From the NCBI GenBank assembly GCA_913051935.1, contig CAJXCU010000021.1, positions 1 through 40,223 on the forward strand: a stretch of 40,223 nt of DNA, read 5' to 3'. Each line of letters starts with the position of its first letter. The first letter of the stretch is position 1. Source of the stretch: an uncultured Flavobacteriales bacterium (GTDB lineage: Bacteria > Bacteroidota > Bacteroidia > Flavobacteriales_D > Crocinitomicaceae). The translations under genes were made by a program, and so were the position numbers. Below the pieces are notes generated by a model. The model made no database searches. It had not been told where the DNA came from and saw nothing but the letters and a program-made list of their open reading frames with translations. Of this stretch, positions 14 to 9,016 are shown in pieces.

Positions 14-1534
14 TTAATGTTTGAAATGACGAATTCCTGTAAAAACCATTTTCATATTATTGGCGTCACAGTAATCAATGGACTGCTTGTCTTTTATCGA
101 CCCTCCCGGCTGAATTACGGTATCTATACCCTCATTATGAGCGATTTCAACACAATCAGGAAAAGGAAAAAATGCATCACTCGCCATTACAGCACCTTCT
201 AAATGAAATTCAAAAGACTTTGCCTTATGAATGGCTTGTCGCAAGGCGTCAACTCTGGAGGTTTGTCCTGTTCCGCTGGCTAGTAATTGTAAGCCTTTTG
301 CCAAAACGATGGTATTTGACTTCGTGTGTTTTGCTATTTTATTGGCAAACAGTAAGTCCTCTATTTCGCTATTCGAAGGAGTATTCATAGTTGCATTTTG
401 CAGAGATTTTTTAGTTTCTATGGCGGAGTCTTTGTCTTGAACAAGATAGCCATTTAAGACGGACCTTACGCTTTGCGGACTTGCCTTAAGGGGTTTAGAT
501 TTAAGGAGTATCCGGTTTTTTTTCTGTTTTAAAACATCAAGTCCTGCTTGGTCAAAAGAGGGTGCAATGAGCACCTCACAAAATAGCGTATTGATAAGCT
601 CTGCGGTCTCTTTATCAATCGCTGTGTTTGAGATTAAGACCCCTCCAAAAGCACTGACGGGGTCACCGGCTAAGGCACATTCGTAAGCCTCTTTGATTGT
701 AGCTCGGGTGCTTAAACCACAAGCATTGTTGTGTTTCATTATGGCGAATGTTGGCCCGTCATTTAAAAACTCTTTCATAAGATTGGTCGCAGCGTCTACA
801 TCTAAGAGATTGTTGTATGAAAGTTCTTTTCCATGAAGCTGCTCAAATACAGCGCTGAAGTCCCCGAAAAACGAGCCTTTTTGATGAGGATTCTCACCGT
901 ATCGTAGGGAACGTTTTTGACTATTGCTGATTTTAAGGACCTCATTTGAGTCTTCAGCGAAGTAGTTAAAAATAGATGTATCGTAATGTGACGATATTTG
1001 GAAAGAAGCGCTCGCATAGGATTTTCTTTGCTCAAGGCTAAAAGCTCCATTTTGGGATTTTAAATCGTTTAAAAAATCTGAATACTGATGGGTTGAGGAA
1101 ACGACCATGACATCAGCATAGTTTTTCGCTGCCGCCCGGATCAATGAAATTCCACCAATATCGATTTTTTCAATAATATCCGAATGAGGCGCTTTTGAGG
1201 CCACAACTTCTTCAAAGGGATACAAGTCTACAACCACCAAGTCGAGTGCTGGGATATTATATTCTTTAATTGTTTCTTGGTCTGCTGGTAAGCTTCGTCT
1301 ATTAAGGATACCGCCAAATATTTTTGGGTGTAATGTCTTAACTCGACCGCCAAGAATTGACGGGTATTCGGTGAGTTCTTCTACTGGAGTAACGGGAATA
1401 TTTAGGGACTCAATGAAGGTTTGTGTGCCTCCGGTTGAATATATTTGAACCTGGTTTTTATGTAGCTCTTTGACAATAGAATCTAGGCCATCTTTGTAAT
1501 AGACTGATATTAATGCAGATTTTATTTTTTTCAT
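14..1534 (-). CDS. purH: Bifunctional AICAR formyltransferase / IMP cyclohydrolase
   Basis: PurH catalyses the last two steps of de novo IMP synthesis in the cytosol: formyl transfer from 10-formyl-THF to AICAR, then cyclisation to IMP. The N-terminal 190 or so residues are the MGS-like cyclohydrolase domain, with the STGGT loop at 33-37. The rest is the AICAR transformylase domain, with RYGENPHQ at 211-218, the catalytic Lys267-His268 pair, GDPVSAFGG, and SDAFFPFPD followed by QPGGS near the end. At 506 aa it is close to the usual length (about 510-530), and it ends in a TAA only 13 bases from the window edge, so it is complete. It lies 82 bases downstream of nrdA on the same strand. The gap holds a perfect 16-bp palindrome that could be an operator or a weak hairpin. 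Family assignment is certain. Confidence 0.98.
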   Translation of the reverse strand: MKKIKSALISVYYKDGLDSIVKELHKNQVQIYSTGGTQTFIESLNIPVTPVEELTEYPSILGGRVKTLHPKIFGGILNRRSLPADQETIKEYNIPALDLVVVDLYPFEEVVASKAPHSDIIEKIDIGGISLIRAAAKNYADVMVVSSTHQYSDFLNDLKSQNGAFSLEQRKSYASASFQISSHYDTSIFNYFAEDSNEVLKISNSQKRSLRYGENPHQKGSFFGDFSAVFEQLHGKELSYNNLLDVDAATNLMKEFLNDGPTFAIMKHNNACGLSTRATIKEAYECALAGDPVSAFGGVLISNTAIDKETAELINTLFCEVLIAPSFDQAGLDVLKQKKNRILLKSKPLKASPQSVRSVLNGYLVQDKDSAIETKKSLQNATMNTPSNSEIEDLLFANKIAKHTKSNTIVLAKGLQLLASGTGQTSRVDALRQAIHKAKSFEFHLEGAVMASDAFFPFPDCVEIAHNEGIDTVIQPGGSIKDKQSIDYCDANNMKMVFTGIRHFKH

Positions 1535-1616: not shown

Positions 1617-3959
1617 TTAAGATTCCGAATTTTTGCTGTTTTGTATATTAAATTCTTTATTAGATTTCTCAGTACCCCCTATTGTTTTTTGGACATCGGC
1701 TTTGTTAATAGTGAATTTAATAGAATCTGTCGAGGCTTTTGTTTTCAGATGGAACATTCCAGTCTTTAATCCTTTTTCCCATGCATGAAAATGTGCAGCC
1801 GTGAGTTTTCCGAAGTTTGCATTTTCCATAAAAATATTGAGGGATTGACTCTGACAAATGAATGCGCCACGATCCGCAGCCTGATTAATCAGTGTTGTTT
1901 GTGGAATTTCCCATGCTGTCTTGTACAAGTTTTTAATTCTTTGAGGAATACCGTCGATGTTCTGAATAGAGCCATTATTTGCCATTATTTGCATTCCCAT
2001 ATCGGTTCCCCAAAGCCCCTCACTGACCAAGTCTTTTTGTAAGTGTTTGTTCACAGCAATAAATTCTCCTGAATTTATGCATCGCGTCGATATGTTTGAA
2101 GTATATGGCTCAAAGCAAGGGCTGTTTCCTAAAACCTGTGCTGTTGAATATGTTGGCATGGTAGCAATCATCAATGAGTTGCGAACACCGTATTTTTTCA
2201 CTTCTTCTTTAAGAAGGTTCCATTCCCAACGTTTGGTTGGTTTAACATTCCACAGGTCATATTGGAAAAGTCCTTTAGAGACAGGTGATTCAGGAAAGGA
2301 ATCATAATAGCCGTATTTTTTTGCGAGGTCCTTTGACGCCGTCATGGCTGCAAAATAAATTGTTTCGAAAATATCTTGATTCAACAATTTTGCATCTTTA
2401 GATTCAAAAGGAAATCCCATTAAAATAAATGCGTCCGCTAGCCCTTGAATACCTAGCCCAATAGGTCGATGTCTCACATTAGATCTTTGGGCCTCATCGA
2501 TGGGGTAATAATTGTTATCAATAATCTTATTTAGATTTAATACCGCTTGATAAGATACCTGAAAGAGTTCATCAAAATCAAAGTTCTTTTGTTCGTTGAT
2601 GAATTTAGGTAGGGAAAGAGAGGCAAGTGGGCACGCCGCTACCTCATCTGGTGAACTATACGCGACAATTTCAGCACATAAATTTGATGTTTTTACAACG
2701 CCCAAATTTTGTTGGTTGGATTTGTTATTTGCTGCATCTTTATACAACATGTAGGGCATCCCTGTTTCAATTTGTGTTTCTAATATTTTAAACCAAAGGT
2801 CTTGAGCTTTTATGGTTTCTTTCCCTTTTCCTGCTTTTTCATATTTTGTATAAAGCACTTCGAATGATTCACTGTGAACATCTGAAAGCCCTGGACATTC
2901 ATAGGGACACATTAAAGTCCAATTCCCATTTTCTTGAACACGTTTCATAAATAGATCAGGAATCCACAAGGCATAAGAAAGGTCTCTTGCCCGCTGCTCT
3001 TCTTTTCCATGATTCTTTTTTAAATCAAGAAAGTCAAATACATCAGCATGCCAAGGTTCTAAATAAATGGCAAAAGAACCCTTCCTTTTTCCACCTCCTT
3101 GATCGACATACTTCGCTGTATTATTAAAAACTTTGAGCATGGGGACAATCCCGTTTGATACTCCGTTTGAACCTTTGATGTATGACCCTTTTGCCCGTAC
3201 CTCGTGGATGGCAAGTCCAATACCTCCTGCGAGCTGTGAGATTTGAGCACAGGATTTTAGTGTGTCATAAATGCCGGTTATACTATCTTCTTTGTTGGTC
3301 ATCAAAAAACCTGAGGACAATTGTGGTTTTGCTGTACCTGCATTAAATAATGTGGGAGATGCATGTGTAAACCAACCCTCTGACATCAGGTTGTATGTTT
3401 TCAGTACAGCATTAATATCGTTTTTATGTATTCCTATTGACACGCGCATCAGCATTTGCTGCGGTCTCTCTACAATTCGGCTATCGAGTTTCATGAGGTA
3501 TGAACGCGTTAAGGTTTTAAAACCGAAATAATCATATTTAAAGTCTCGGTCATATACTATACTTGAATCAAATAGCTCTTGATTCCCCATTACAATTGAA
3601 TATACCTCATCAGATAAAAGCGCAGCATTTTCGCCTGTTAAAGGGTCAATATAATTGTATAAATCATTCATGACCTCAGAAAAGTTATTTTTGGTTTCTT
3701 TGTGGAGGTTGGAAACGGCAATTCGTGATGCTAGTAGCGCATAATCAGGGTGTTCTATTGTTTTGGTTATTGCCACTTCTGCGGCAAGTTTGTCTAATCC
3801 TGTTGTGGTGATACCGTCAAAAATTGATTCAATAACTTTCATCGTTACTGCCTCGGGAGAAACCAAATGGTCAAGACCGTAGCACATTTTAACTATACGC
3901 GCTGTAATCTTATCAAACTTTATAGCTTCCTTACTTCCATCTCTTTTTACTACGTACAT
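1617..3959 (-). CDS. nrdA: Class I-type ribonucleotide reductase large subunit, atypical
   Basis: Family role: reduction of ribonucleotides to deoxyribonucleotides with an NrdB radical partner. Residues 1-90 are an ATP-cone (MYVVKRDG start); the rest is the ten-stranded barrel, closely colinear with eukaryotic and Bacteroidota class I large subunits. The thiyl-radical loop SNLCAEI is intact (Asn426, Cys428, Glu430), as is the second barrel cysteine, Cys443 in VAACPLA. Three conserved features are missing. The redox cysteine of LSSCFL is Gly217 (codon 3309-3311, GGT). The radical-relay Tyr-Tyr of GMYYLRT is Phe736-His737 (1749-1754). The C-terminal tail has no CxxC or any other cysteine after residue 702. 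The phosphate loop reads MPTYSTAQ where MPTASTAQ is usual. nrdB is not adjacent. The 780-aa frame is clean, so decay is not obvious. This is either a specialised paralogue with other redox chemistry or a non-catalytic homologue. Confidence 0.9.
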   Translation of the reverse strand: MYVVKRDGSKEAIKFDKITARIVKMCYGLDHLVSPEAVTMKVIESIFDGITTTGLDKLAAEVAITKTIEHPDYALLASRIAVSNLHKETKNNFSEVMNDLYNYIDPLTGENAALLSDEVYSIVMGNQELFDSSIVYDRDFKYDYFGFKTLTRSYLMKLDSRIVERPQQMLMRVSIGIHKNDINAVLKTYNLMSEGWFTHASPTLFNAGTAKPQLSSGFLMTNKEDSITGIYDTLKSCAQISQLAGGIGLAIHEVRAKGSYIKGSNGVSNGIVPMLKVFNNTAKYVDQGGGKRKGSFAIYLEPWHADVFDFLDLKKNHGKEEQRARDLSYALWIPDLFMKRVQENGNWTLMCPYECPGLSDVHSESFEVLYTKYEKAGKGKETIKAQDLWFKILETQIETGMPYMLYKDAANNKSNQQNLGVVKTSNLCAEIVAYSSPDEVAACPLASLSLPKFINEQKNFDFDELFQVSYQAVLNLNKIIDNNYYPIDEAQRSNVRHRPIGLGIQGLADAFILMGFPFESKDAKLLNQDIFETIYFAAMTASKDLAKKYGYYDSFPESPVSKGLFQYDLWNVKPTKRWEWNLLKEEVKKYGVRNSLMIATMPTYSTAQVLGNSPCFEPYTSNISTRCINSGEFIAVNKHLQKDLVSEGLWGTDMGMQIMANNGSIQNIDGIPQRIKNLYKTAWEIPQTTLINQAADRGAFICQSQSLNIFMENANFGKLTAAHFHAWEKGLKTGMFHLKTKASTDSIKFTINKADVQKTIGGTEKSNKEFNIQNSKNSES

Positions 3960-4412
3960 CTGTATTTCTCTTTTCTTAGTTTTTAAATTCTCTGCGCTCA
4001 GCTAAAGCCCTTTTAGAACCATGAAAAGTTAGAGTACTTTGTGTATTAAGTATCAAGCTTTTTTAGAATTTGGCTCTTTTTTAAGTCAATAATTGTGGGC
4101 AACCGAGGCGTACAAAAGTTGTTAAAAATCTTACAGAATCAAATTAAAGAAATGAACAATAAATTATTGTTTTCAACACCTTATGTCTACATCCGAAGAT
4201 TGATAACCCTTTCGGTAATTATGAACATGAAACCGAAAGATATCCACATCTTTTTGATGCATGCCGTAAAAACTTTTCTCGATGGTTTTGGTAATTTGCA
4301 TTGTTTTTTTTGCAATACTTAAGCTATTTAAATATGGATGACCACCCGATGTATTAAATAAAAATAAATTGCTGTTTTCGCAGGATCGTAGCCCAAAAAG
4401 TCAAAAGGTTAT
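3960..4412. other. Divergent intergenic region nrdA/comF, no gene recognised
   Basis: This 453-base AT-rich gap lies between divergent genes and must hold the promoters of both nrdA and comF. I see an 8-bp inverted repeat, CTTTCGGT at 4209-4216 with ACCGAAAG at 4232-4239 (15-base loop), and a single near-match to a DnaA box (ATATCCACA, 4239-4247). No exact TAnnTTTG promoter element stands close to either start. The one longer reading frame (4095-4322, plus) has no recognisable protein features and was not called. nrdB is absent, although it often neighbours nrdA. Confidence 0.5.
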
Positions 4413-5138
4413 ATGTTTAACGTTGTAAATTTATTGGGGTATTTCAATTCTTTTCGTGCTGGTTTGGTACATTTGATTTATCCAGACTTATGCCTTCATT
4501 GTAAAAGGGCACTTCACCACAATCATCCGTTTTTGTGCTATGCTTGTTTGTCTAGAATTGAATTGGTAAAATGGAGGGAAAAGGAGACACATCATTTACT
4601 TCAACAATCTTTAAATGACCCTCATCTATCTTGCTCAGTTATTCTGTATAGATTTGAGAAAGGTGGTGCTGTTCAGACAATATTGCATGAATTGAAGTAT
4701 AAAAATAATCGTGAAATCGGATTGTATTTTGGGCGCCTTATAGGCGAGGAAGCCCGAAATAAATTGGCAAGTCATACAATTGATGCATTAATCCCGGTGC
4801 CTATTCACCATCGAAAGCGATTTGACCGTGGCTATAATCAAAGCGAGCTTTTGGCAAAAGGGATCTCATCACTTACTGGTATTCAAGTGAAATCTCATCT
4901 ATTATCGAAAACGAGGAATACCAAAAGTCAAACCAAGGTTTCAAAAGAAGACCGTATTGAAAATACAGCGGGTACCTTCTCTGTTGCTGAGGAGGTCAAA
5001 GAATATACCTCTATTGCTTTGGTTGATGATGTAATTACTACAGGAGCTACTGCGGGGTCAATTTGCAAGGCGCTAAGAAAAAAAAATAAAAACTTACAAA
5101 TTACTATTCTCAGTCTTTCAATTGCCAGCAGGAATTGA
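4413..5138 (+). CDS. comF: ComF family phosphoribosyltransferase-like protein
   Basis: ComF proteins are cytosolic PRTase-fold proteins associated with DNA uptake in competent bacteria; in non-competent species their role is unsettled. The 241-aa product starts with a zinc-ribbon in which Cys27, Cys30, Cys42 and Cys45 form two Cx2C pairs. It ends with a PRTase domain carrying the PRPP-binding motif VDDVITTGAT at 204-213. The segment LIPVPIHHRKRFDRGYNQSELLAKG is typical of the family. ATG at 4413 is the only start that keeps the zinc finger with a sensible leader. It stands alone: the next gene has its own promoter-like element. Nothing in the neighbourhood supports a specific competence role. 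Confidence 0.93.
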   Translation: MFNVVNLLGYFNSFRAGLVHLIYPDLCLHCKRALHHNHPFLCYACLSRIELVKWREKETHHLLQQSLNDPHLSCSVILYRFEKGGAVQTILHELKYKNNREIGLYFGRLIGEEARNKLASHTIDALIPVPIHHRKRFDRGYNQSELLAKGISSLTGIQVKSHLLSKTRNTKSQTKVSKEDRIENTAGTFSVAEEVKEYTSIALVDDVITTGATAGSICKALRKKNKNLQITILSLSIASRN

Positions 5139-7219: not shown

Positions 7220-9016
7220 ATGAAACACATTCGAAATTTTTGTATCATTGCCCATATTGATCATGGGAAAAGCACACTTGCCGATCGTCTTTTACAAGCG
7301 ACCGGTACAATCTCCGACCGCGAGATGCAAAACCAAGCTTTAGATGACATGGAATTGGAGCGAGAAAGGGGGATTACAATAAAAAGTCACGCCATTCAGA
7401 TGAGTTATCGGCATGATGAGACGGATTATATTTTAAATTTAATTGATACCCCTGGACACGTTGATTTTTCCTATGAGGTTTCCCGTTCTATCGCTGCTTG
7501 CGAGGGTGCTTTATTGATTGTGGATGCCTCTCAAGGAATTGAAGCACAAACCATCTCTAATTTATATTTAGCACTTGAGCATGACTTACAGATCATTCCC
7601 ATTCTCAACAAAATGGATTTGCCAGGTGCCATGCCCGAGGAGGTTTCTGACCAAATAGTTGAGCTTATCGGTTGCGAATATGAAGAAATAATTCAAGCAT
7701 CTGGGAAAACTGGGCTTGGAGTTGAAGAGATACTAGCAGCTGTCGTGAATTCAGTTCCTGCACCTCAAGGCAATGAGGAGGCTCCTTTACAAGCGATGAT
7801 TTTTGATTCCGTATTTAATCCTTTTAGAGGAATTATTGCCTATTTCCGGGTGAAAAATGGTGTAATAAGAAAAGGACAAAGAATTCGTTTTTTTAATACA
7901 AAGAGAGATTACAACGCCGATGAAATTGGTGTGCTAAAAATGGGGTTAGACCCTAAAAAAGAGCTCAGAACTGGTGATGTGGGTTATATCATTTCTGGAA
8001 TAAAGCAAGCCAATGAGGTTAAGGTTGGTGACACTATTACATCATCTGAGAATCCTTGTCAAGAGGATCTAAAAGGTTTTGAAGATGTGAAACCTATGGT
8101 GTTTGCAGGCATCTATCCAGTAGACTCAGAAGATTATGAAGAATTAAGATACTCCATGGAAAAGCTCCAGCTAAATGATTCATCATTGGTTTTTGAACCT
8201 GAGTCTTCAGCGGCCTTAGGCTTTGGTTTTCGTTGTGGGTTTTTGGGAATGCTTCACATGGAGATTATTCAGGAGCGCCTTGAGCGAGAATTTAACATGA
8301 CTGTGATTACAACGGTGCCCAACGTATCCTATAAGTCATATATGAAGAAAACCCCAGACGAGGTATTTATCGTAAACAACCCTTCGGAGCTTCCGGACCC
8401 ATCTGGCATGGATAAAATTGAAGAGCCGTATATCAAAGCTCAGGTGATTACAAAAACAGAATATGTCGGTGCGATTATGACACTGTGTATTGAGAAGAGA
8501 GGAGAGCTGCAAAACCAAGTATATCTCACTCAGGATAGAGTGGAAATCACCTTTGAAATGCCTTTGGCGGAAATCGTTTTTGATTTTTATGACCGACTAA
8601 AATCAGTATCAAGAGGCTATGCTTCTTTTGACTATCATCCAACAGGCTATAAGGCATCAGATTTAATCAAAATGGACTTGCTACTTAATGGCGAGCAGGT
8701 TGATGCTCTGTCTGCGCTTGTTCACAGGAGTAATGCTTTTGATTTAGGAAAAAGAATTTGTTTGAAGCTGAAAGAACTAATCCCTCGACAGCAGTTTGAA
8801 ATTCCTGTACAAGCGGCAATAGGTGCAAAAGTAATTGCTAGAGAAACCATCAAAGCCTTAAGAAAAGACGTAACGGCGAAATGTTATGGTGGCGACATTA
8901 CACGTAAGAGAAAACTTTTAGAAAAGCAGAAAGCGGGGAAAAAGCGAATGCGTCAAGTAGGCAAAGTTGAGGTTCCGCAAGAAGCGTTTTTAGCGGTACT
9001 AAAGTTGAACGATTAG
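7220..9016 (+). CDS. lepA: Elongation factor 4 (back-translocating GTPase)
   Basis: LepA/EF4 is a ribosome-associated GTPase implicated in back-translocation, initiation and ribosome biogenesis under stress. The G domain shows AHIDHGKST at 11-19 (G1), [12 protein letters not shown] (G3) and NKMDLPG (G4). Domain II, the EF-G-like domains and the LepA-specific C-terminal domain follow, ending in the basic [33 protein letters not shown] typical of the family. At 598 aa the length is normal. The start at 7220 ([12 protein letters not shown]) is the standard LepA N-terminus. A candidate -7 element stands 7 bases ahead. Assignment is certain. Confidence 0.98.

Follow-up and report, generated by a model that had tools for sequence, protein, structure and literature searches.

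In class I ribonucleotide reductases (RNRs), a cysteine pair, a Tyr-Tyr pair and the cysteines of the C-terminal tail perform redox chemistry and radical transfer. Human RRM1, yeast Rnr1 and the NrdA proteins of Flavobacteriales are RRM1-like large subunits of this class. Large subunits that no longer act as reductases have been described in cytomegaloviruses, whose R1 homologues (HCMV UL45 and MCMV M45) are catalytically inactive and act on host signalling, according to the available part of PMC5469499. A class Id enzyme, NrdAi/NrdBi, is that of Leeuwenhoekiella blandensis (available part of PMC5794259; structure 5olk), and NrdR offers, in the accessible portion of PMC9110341, a precedent for nucleotide sensing by an ATP-cone without catalysis.

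The DNA analysed here (the window, the whole stretch of 40,223 nucleotides) comes from an uncultured bacterium of the Crocinitomicaceae, order Flavobacteriales, and encodes an NrdA that shares with the RRM1-like large subunits the fold, the arrangement of domains along its 780 residues, the ATP-cone and the Asn/Cys/Glu/Cys set of the radical loop, but that differs from them in lacking the redox Cys217, the Tyr-Tyr pair, Ala604, the tail CxxC and the partner nrdB. As for UL45 and M45 in the part of PMC5469499 available, an RNR large subunit presumably devoid of reductase function would have been kept for another role; unlike the viral genes, the gene of the window is chromosomal and bacterial, retains an ATP-cone and occurs beside a replacement RNR, and its inactivity is what we infer. 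The counterpart of the L. blandensis enzyme, as given in the same portion of PMC5794259, is an NrdA'/NrdB' pair found in the same genome, to whose subclass the NrdA of the window does not belong: it carries the ATP-cone itself and is ~30% identical, in pieces, to NrdA'. NrdR, as covered by the accessible portion of PMC9110341, is a transcription repressor, whereas the Pfam domain search found no DNA-binding domain in the window NrdA, and the analogy is one of working only. Inactive R1 homologues are thus already known in cytomegaloviruses, and a bacterial case is apparently new on a weak literature absence: none was found in the literature searched, outside of which most subscription papers lay, and the terms "pseudoenzyme", "inactive" and "orphan" do not occur in the main text of the RNR phylogeny PMC9531940, as far as the available text goes.

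The gene and its distinguishing parts are listed below; residue numbers are those of the window NrdA (1-780), and the genome of the window is designated G000.

1617..3959, minus strand: orphan nrdA, an RRM1-like class I large subunit (open frame of 780 aa, domain and RRM1 matches)
3696..3959, minus strand: ATP-cone, residues 1-88 (Pfam)
3309..3311, minus strand: codon of Gly217, a Cys in 111/113 NrdA rows (alignment with RRM1 and relatives)
2595..2699, minus strand: residues 421-455, with Asn426, Cys428, Glu430 and Cys443 intact (alignment)
2136..2162, minus strand: altered phosphate loop, residues 600-608, P600T and A604Y (alignment)
1749..1754, minus strand: Phe736-His737 where the Tyr-Tyr relay is expected (alignment)
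1620..1724, minus strand: C-terminal tail without CxxC, residues 746-780 (translation, alignment)

The protein was assigned to class I by the model TIGR02506 (669.7 bits, cut-off 341) and by its Pfam architecture of ATP-cone, lgN and lgC, the last two covering the all-alpha and barrel domains, and the class II model TIGR02504 (NrdJ) reached 295 bits, below its cut-off of 400. An earlier note, made from the letters alone, had described a frame colinear with canonical large subunits, with its radical loop intact and its redox cysteine, tyrosine relay, tail CxxC and phosphate loop lost or altered, and the alignments agree with it throughout. Human RRM1 (3hnc) aligned colinearly with residues 1-769 (1115 bits); Asn426, Cys428 and Glu430, the thiyl cysteine and its companions, match RRM1, as does Cys443, while Gly217 stands opposite the Cys of LSSCFL, leaving the active-site redox pair (217 and 443) incomplete. 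Phe736-His737 occupies the place of the Tyr-Tyr radical relay, Tyr604 faces the Ala of MPTASTAQ, and no CxxC occurs in the tail of the translated 780-aa frame, a feature shared with the nrdA genes of loci L116 and L144, which keep the other marks. The AlphaFold model, whose nearest structures were those of human RRM1, was of medium confidence (pLDDT 73.8, pTM 0.78, partly low at 213-322), and residue-level claims rest on the alignments instead.

Three trivial accounts of these residues were ruled out. A shift of the residues was excluded by the RRM1 alignment. A sequencing or assembly error was excluded by a separate assembly of the same genus, G019, with the identical Gly217, Phe736-His737, Tyr604 and Cys-free tail, whose nrdA is 89% identical to that of the window in DNA and 92% in protein. 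A feature shared by the whole lineage, which the earlier note had named as a reason to discard its reading, was excluded since the losses are confined to 2/85 genus genomes, and the linked losses it had reported are real. Among 113 distinct full-length NrdA rows with an identity of at least 64%, Cys217, Ala604 and Tyr-Tyr occur together in 111, the only exceptions being G000 and G019. NrdA matches were obtained in 85 of the 86 genus genomes searched; position 217 was Cys in 82 of them, Gly in two and unread in one, and positions 736-737 were Tyr-Tyr in 82, Phe-His in two and Tyr-Asn in one, Gly217 and Phe-His being combined in G000 and G019 only. Viral NrdA proteins from 45 loci presented Cys217 in 38 (7 unread) and Tyr-Tyr in 36 (9 unread). 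In viral contigs L199, L201, L202, L203 and similar ones, nrdA either falls into two frames that part around residue 286 in query numbering or contains additional sequence that interrupts it. Pattern scans were swamped by chance matches, LSSGFL hitting 156/399 genomes of the order and TGMFHL 35/395 genomes of the class, and none of 20 loci taken from these scans encoded an NrdA relative among the matches listed.

The tail CxxC is a weaker mark than Cys217 and Tyr-Tyr. It was absent from the last 45 residues in six of the 113 rows, namely the G000/G019 pair, L038 and L122, which are cut or masked rows, and L116 and L144. In the latter two, no tail CxxC was found in the same or neighbouring frames even though both retain Cys217 and Tyr-Tyr and have nrdB upstream, so that the tail is possibly dispensable.

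The surroundings of the gene were compared with the corresponding loci of relatives, in which nrdB lies directly upstream of nrdA. The neighbours carry the names that we take to be theirs.

14..1534, minus strand: conserved neighbour, purH (locus comparison)
3960..4412, minus strand: interval from nrdA to the comF-like gene, the site of nrdB in relatives, without nrdB remnant (locus comparison, tblastn)
~4069..4342, minus strand: conserved non-coding block, upstream of nrdB in relatives and here upstream of nrdA (alignment of loci)
4413..5138, plus strand: conserved neighbour, comF-like phosphoribosyltransferase (locus comparison; Pfam PRTase_2 below cut-off)
7220..9016, plus strand: conserved neighbour, lepA (locus comparison)

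The order purH, nrdA, comF-like gene and lepA is retained in the window, with no nrdB coding sequence left from the conserved block to nrdA. On the fetched nrdA loci, nrdB was present in 82/85 genus genomes and absent in G000, G019 and G092. A tblastn search of the window and the G019 contig with the NrdB of the relative G027 returned chance matches only (best E 0.84). It had been noticed earlier that nrdB was not adjacent; this is true, and the comparison with relatives reveals the reason, which is the deletion of nrdB from the operon. No canonical nrdB was found elsewhere in the window's genome, the class Id NrdB being the only one in an assembly that is 90.67% complete; absences in G019 and G092 are likewise bounded by assemblies of 88% and 67% completeness. 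In the genomes aligned, block 4069-4342 carries an invariant TGTGGATATCTTT, which we assume to be DnaA-box-like, and Rfam yielded nothing at gathering score on the window.

A search for other RNR genes in the same genome, proposed in the earlier note, gave the class Id type as the sole NrdB match (675 bits to L. blandensis 5olk, full length), with the ATP-cone of the class Id enzyme on NrdB' and with an adjacent NrdA' (751 bits to 6dqx) that keeps the cysteines, Tyr-Tyr and tail CxxC. NrdD had no match in G000, G019 or G027, and besides the class Id NrdA' a truncated NrdA-like frame was recovered on contig C1. This 910-aa frame (L098 11246-13978, minus strand) contains a pair of ATP-cones and an incomplete RNR barrel that passes into DUF1990; it is 39% identical over residues 3-569, covers 374/523 barrel positions and was not seen in other genus genomes. 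Beyond it, GC falls from ~0.36 to 0.25-0.33 towards the contig end, and the frame may stem from a chimeric contig or be another degenerate NrdA. The class Id genes and their crp-like neighbour (L097 8556-11619, minus strand, and the G019 counterpart) presented a dS of 0.76-1.06 between G000 and G019, in comparison with 0.39-0.48 for purH, nrdA, the comF-like gene, a mannosidase gene and like neighbours; does this excess reflect recombination or transfer of the class Id operon?

The presence of a second RNR bears on whether the window NrdA could still be an active reductase, with the class Id NrdB' as its radical source and a small thiol or glutaredoxin as its direct reductant. Cys428 and Cys443 are kept, and the L116 and L144 enzymes, which have no tail CxxC, retain Cys217, Tyr-Tyr and nrdB. 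However, Gly217 leaves the active site with a single redox cysteine instead of two, Phe-His removes the relay, the phosphate loop is altered and NrdB' is already paired with its own intact NrdA', which together make such an enzyme highly improbable.

The orphan nrdA is under purifying selection and is no relic. Between G000 and G019 its dN/dS is 0.095 at a dS of 0.41. The corresponding ratio is 0.089 in purH and 0.159 in the comF-like gene, takes values of 0.133 and 0.053 in a pair of genes close to the class Id operon, and falls to 0.013 in NrdA' and 0.009 in NrdB'; canonical nrdA pairs with computable dS (11 sampled, near saturation) had a lower dN/dS than the orphan pair, of 0.017-0.060. 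Neutral simulation at the G000-G019 distance produced a mean of 27 stop codons and a minimum of 16 in 300 runs, and none is observed. Catalytic residues have been lost and the frame is kept by selection, as in a pseudoenzyme. The same data also revealed a burst of change on the stem followed by constraint: in the NrdA tree, the stem of G000/G019 measures 0.54 and the tips 0.02 and 0.10, and pN to G027 is 0.130 for nrdA (pS 0.77), 0.064 for purH and 0.0135 for lepA. This burst, the raised pN of nrdA and the looser tail (dN/dS 0.29 over residues 746-780) are what would be expected if nrdA were slowly decaying after the loss of nrdB and on its way out, not yet broken. Such a fate is nevertheless quite unlikely, given the low dN/dS since the two carriers split, the absence of stops where neutrality predicts ~27, the full length of the gene in three genomes and a pN that stays at 0.13 for a pS of 0.77 even across the stem.

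The changes are not evenly spread along the protein. Invariant columns were defined as those identical in at least 93/94 canonical rows (407 columns), and 46 of them are broken in G000 and G019 alike. Over residues 1-745, the active-site segments (211-222, 421-455, 591-645 and 716-745) account for 28/102 broken columns in comparison with 17/304 elsewhere, with a Fisher p of 2e-8 that is optimistic because the segments were fixed after a first count. The damage is concentrated in the active-site segments and the ATP-cone is mostly spared, 4/46 columns being broken in segment 1-90, 3/55 in 223-300 and 0/25 in 646-715; when each of 94 other genomes was left out in turn, at most 11 columns were broken in any of them.

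Segment 421-455 has 8/25 invariant columns broken in G000 and G019, and in the midst of them Asn426, Cys428, Glu430 and Cys443 are conserved in 85/85 genus genomes, the three orphans included. Their retention in G000, G019 and G092 counts against the complete loss of catalysis and is possibly compatible with altered radical chemistry. Together with selection on the whole protein, it could be taken to indicate a neofunctionalised enzyme in which these four residues serve a different thiyl-radical reaction, fed by a different radical source and reductant. On the other hand, neither a canonical NrdB nor an NrdD was found as radical supplier, the protein has lost its relay and one redox cysteine, and the retention of four residues in so small a set of columns carries no statistical signal; this outcome appears improbable. 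The earlier note had left the choice between a different radical source or reductant and a regulatory pseudoenzyme; the pseudoenzyme fits better with the deleted nrdB, the class Id enzyme, purifying selection and the G092 case described below, its regulatory part being a presumption, and the other radical source fits less well.

A second case was found in G092, of the same genus. Its full-length NrdA has Tyr-Asn at 736-737, Thr604 and no tail CxxC, and it keeps Cys217. Its nrdA locus is devoid of nrdB, a single NrdB match was obtained, of class Id type and located at a contig edge, and no NrdA' turned up in this assembly (67% complete). Thirty invariant columns are broken, nine of which are also broken in G000/G019 against 3.4 expected (hypergeometric p 0.003, assuming equally tolerant columns), and four substitutions are identical (T429A, T435S, V442A and P600T). 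The clustering in the active site is weaker (12/102 vs 17/304, p 0.035), and changes in the effector-loop region (G266R, N269D and G289A) indicate that effector sensing is unevenly preserved.

From these sequences, two nrdB deletions are proposed, that of G092 being apparently independent, with partly parallel decay. In a tree built from five flanking proteins (18 rows, not all of them complete, with G019 and G068 represented by purH alone), G000/G019 grouped with G027 and G060, and G092 with G031, G068, G074 and G091, all six of these relatives carrying nrdB. The main alternative is the transfer of a single orphan gene, in which nrdA would have been orphaned once and moved between the two lineages, the parallel changes being shared and not convergent. 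The NrdA tree leaves room for this, since a single clade of the three is not rejected (AU p 0.349), and it would readily explain the nine broken columns that the two cases share, four of which carry an identical residue. However, the flanking genes on both sides group G092 with nrdB-bearing relatives, a single clade being rejected in the flanking tree (AU p 4e-63); the leftover sequence between the block and nrdA in G092 is unlike that of G000/G019; the free NrdA tree also sets G092 apart; and G092 retains Cys217 and Tyr736. A single origin is thus unlikely, and two deletions are the reading followed here.

The converse configuration was observed elsewhere in the order. G054 (one contig, 99% complete) and G050 encode a canonical-type NrdB, and no NrdA like that of the window was found in them except class Id pieces.

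L350 4881-5768, minus strand: tail-less NrdB of G054
L351 4232-5116, minus strand: tail-less NrdB of G050

Both proteins stop at the core, without the ~40-residue C-terminal docking tail present in eight other aligned NrdBs. They differ from the class O ferritin-like proteins, whose short C-termini end just after the relay tyrosine according to the available part of PMC9531940. Since a tail-less NrdB without NrdA mirrors the orphan NrdA, genomes with class Id that lose one of the two subunits may be left with a modified, partner-less copy of the other. G118 resembles G054 and G050 by scores only, among the matches listed. In G110 (same family, 100% complete), the best NrdA match has an E of 1.6e-303 and the best NrdB match an E of 2.5e-61, which is of class Id strength, among the matches listed; it is a possible further orphan, and its nrdA was not located in the 75 fetched stretches. 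Five of 399 genomes (G145, G346, G381, G394 and G405) had an NrdA match with an E of 0 and no NrdB match among the matches listed, and others had partial NrdB matches.

The reading that we favour is that the partner-less NrdA was probably demoted to a nucleotide-binding pseudoenzyme after the deletion of nrdB, with class Id present. A Crocinitomicaceae lineage carrying the class Id NrdA'/NrdB' enzyme has lost the nrdB of its ancestral RRM1-like enzyme, a deletion that, as the comparison of loci shows, left nrdA directly behind the old upstream region. Class Id would have taken over ribonucleotide reduction. NrdA then lost its relay, a redox cysteine and the tail CxxC in a burst that much changed the active site, and is at present under purifying selection. 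Because residues are lost and the partner is missing, class I ribonucleotide reduction would no longer be within its capacity, and it is most likely a nucleotide-binding protein that still folds. Since G000/G019 retain the ATP-cone and the greater part of the specificity-site region, nucleotide sensing is proposed: the protein would bind or sense (d)NTPs without catalysis and modulate dNTP supply, possibly via the class Id enzyme. The intact frame and the apparent second occurrence in a related lineage suggest a new job without catalysis.

A broader proposal can be made only tentatively: that, on two or more occasions, a bacterial NrdA deprived of its partner became a nucleotide-sensing pseudo-subunit that regulates, in trans, the class Id RNR or the dNTP pool, the old active site being reshaped in parallel and the tail-less NrdB forming a mirror image elsewhere in the order. 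The equivalog TIGR02506 names such proteins working reductases, and automatic annotation calls for caution. The locus allows an essential radical enzyme to be compared before and after its apparent conversion into a non-catalytic protein: its partner has been deleted, a replacement exists, the chemistry has gone and the fold remains. The apparently independent repeat makes this outcome testable instead of anecdotal, and it asks of what use the large subunit of an RNR may be to the cell without catalysis.
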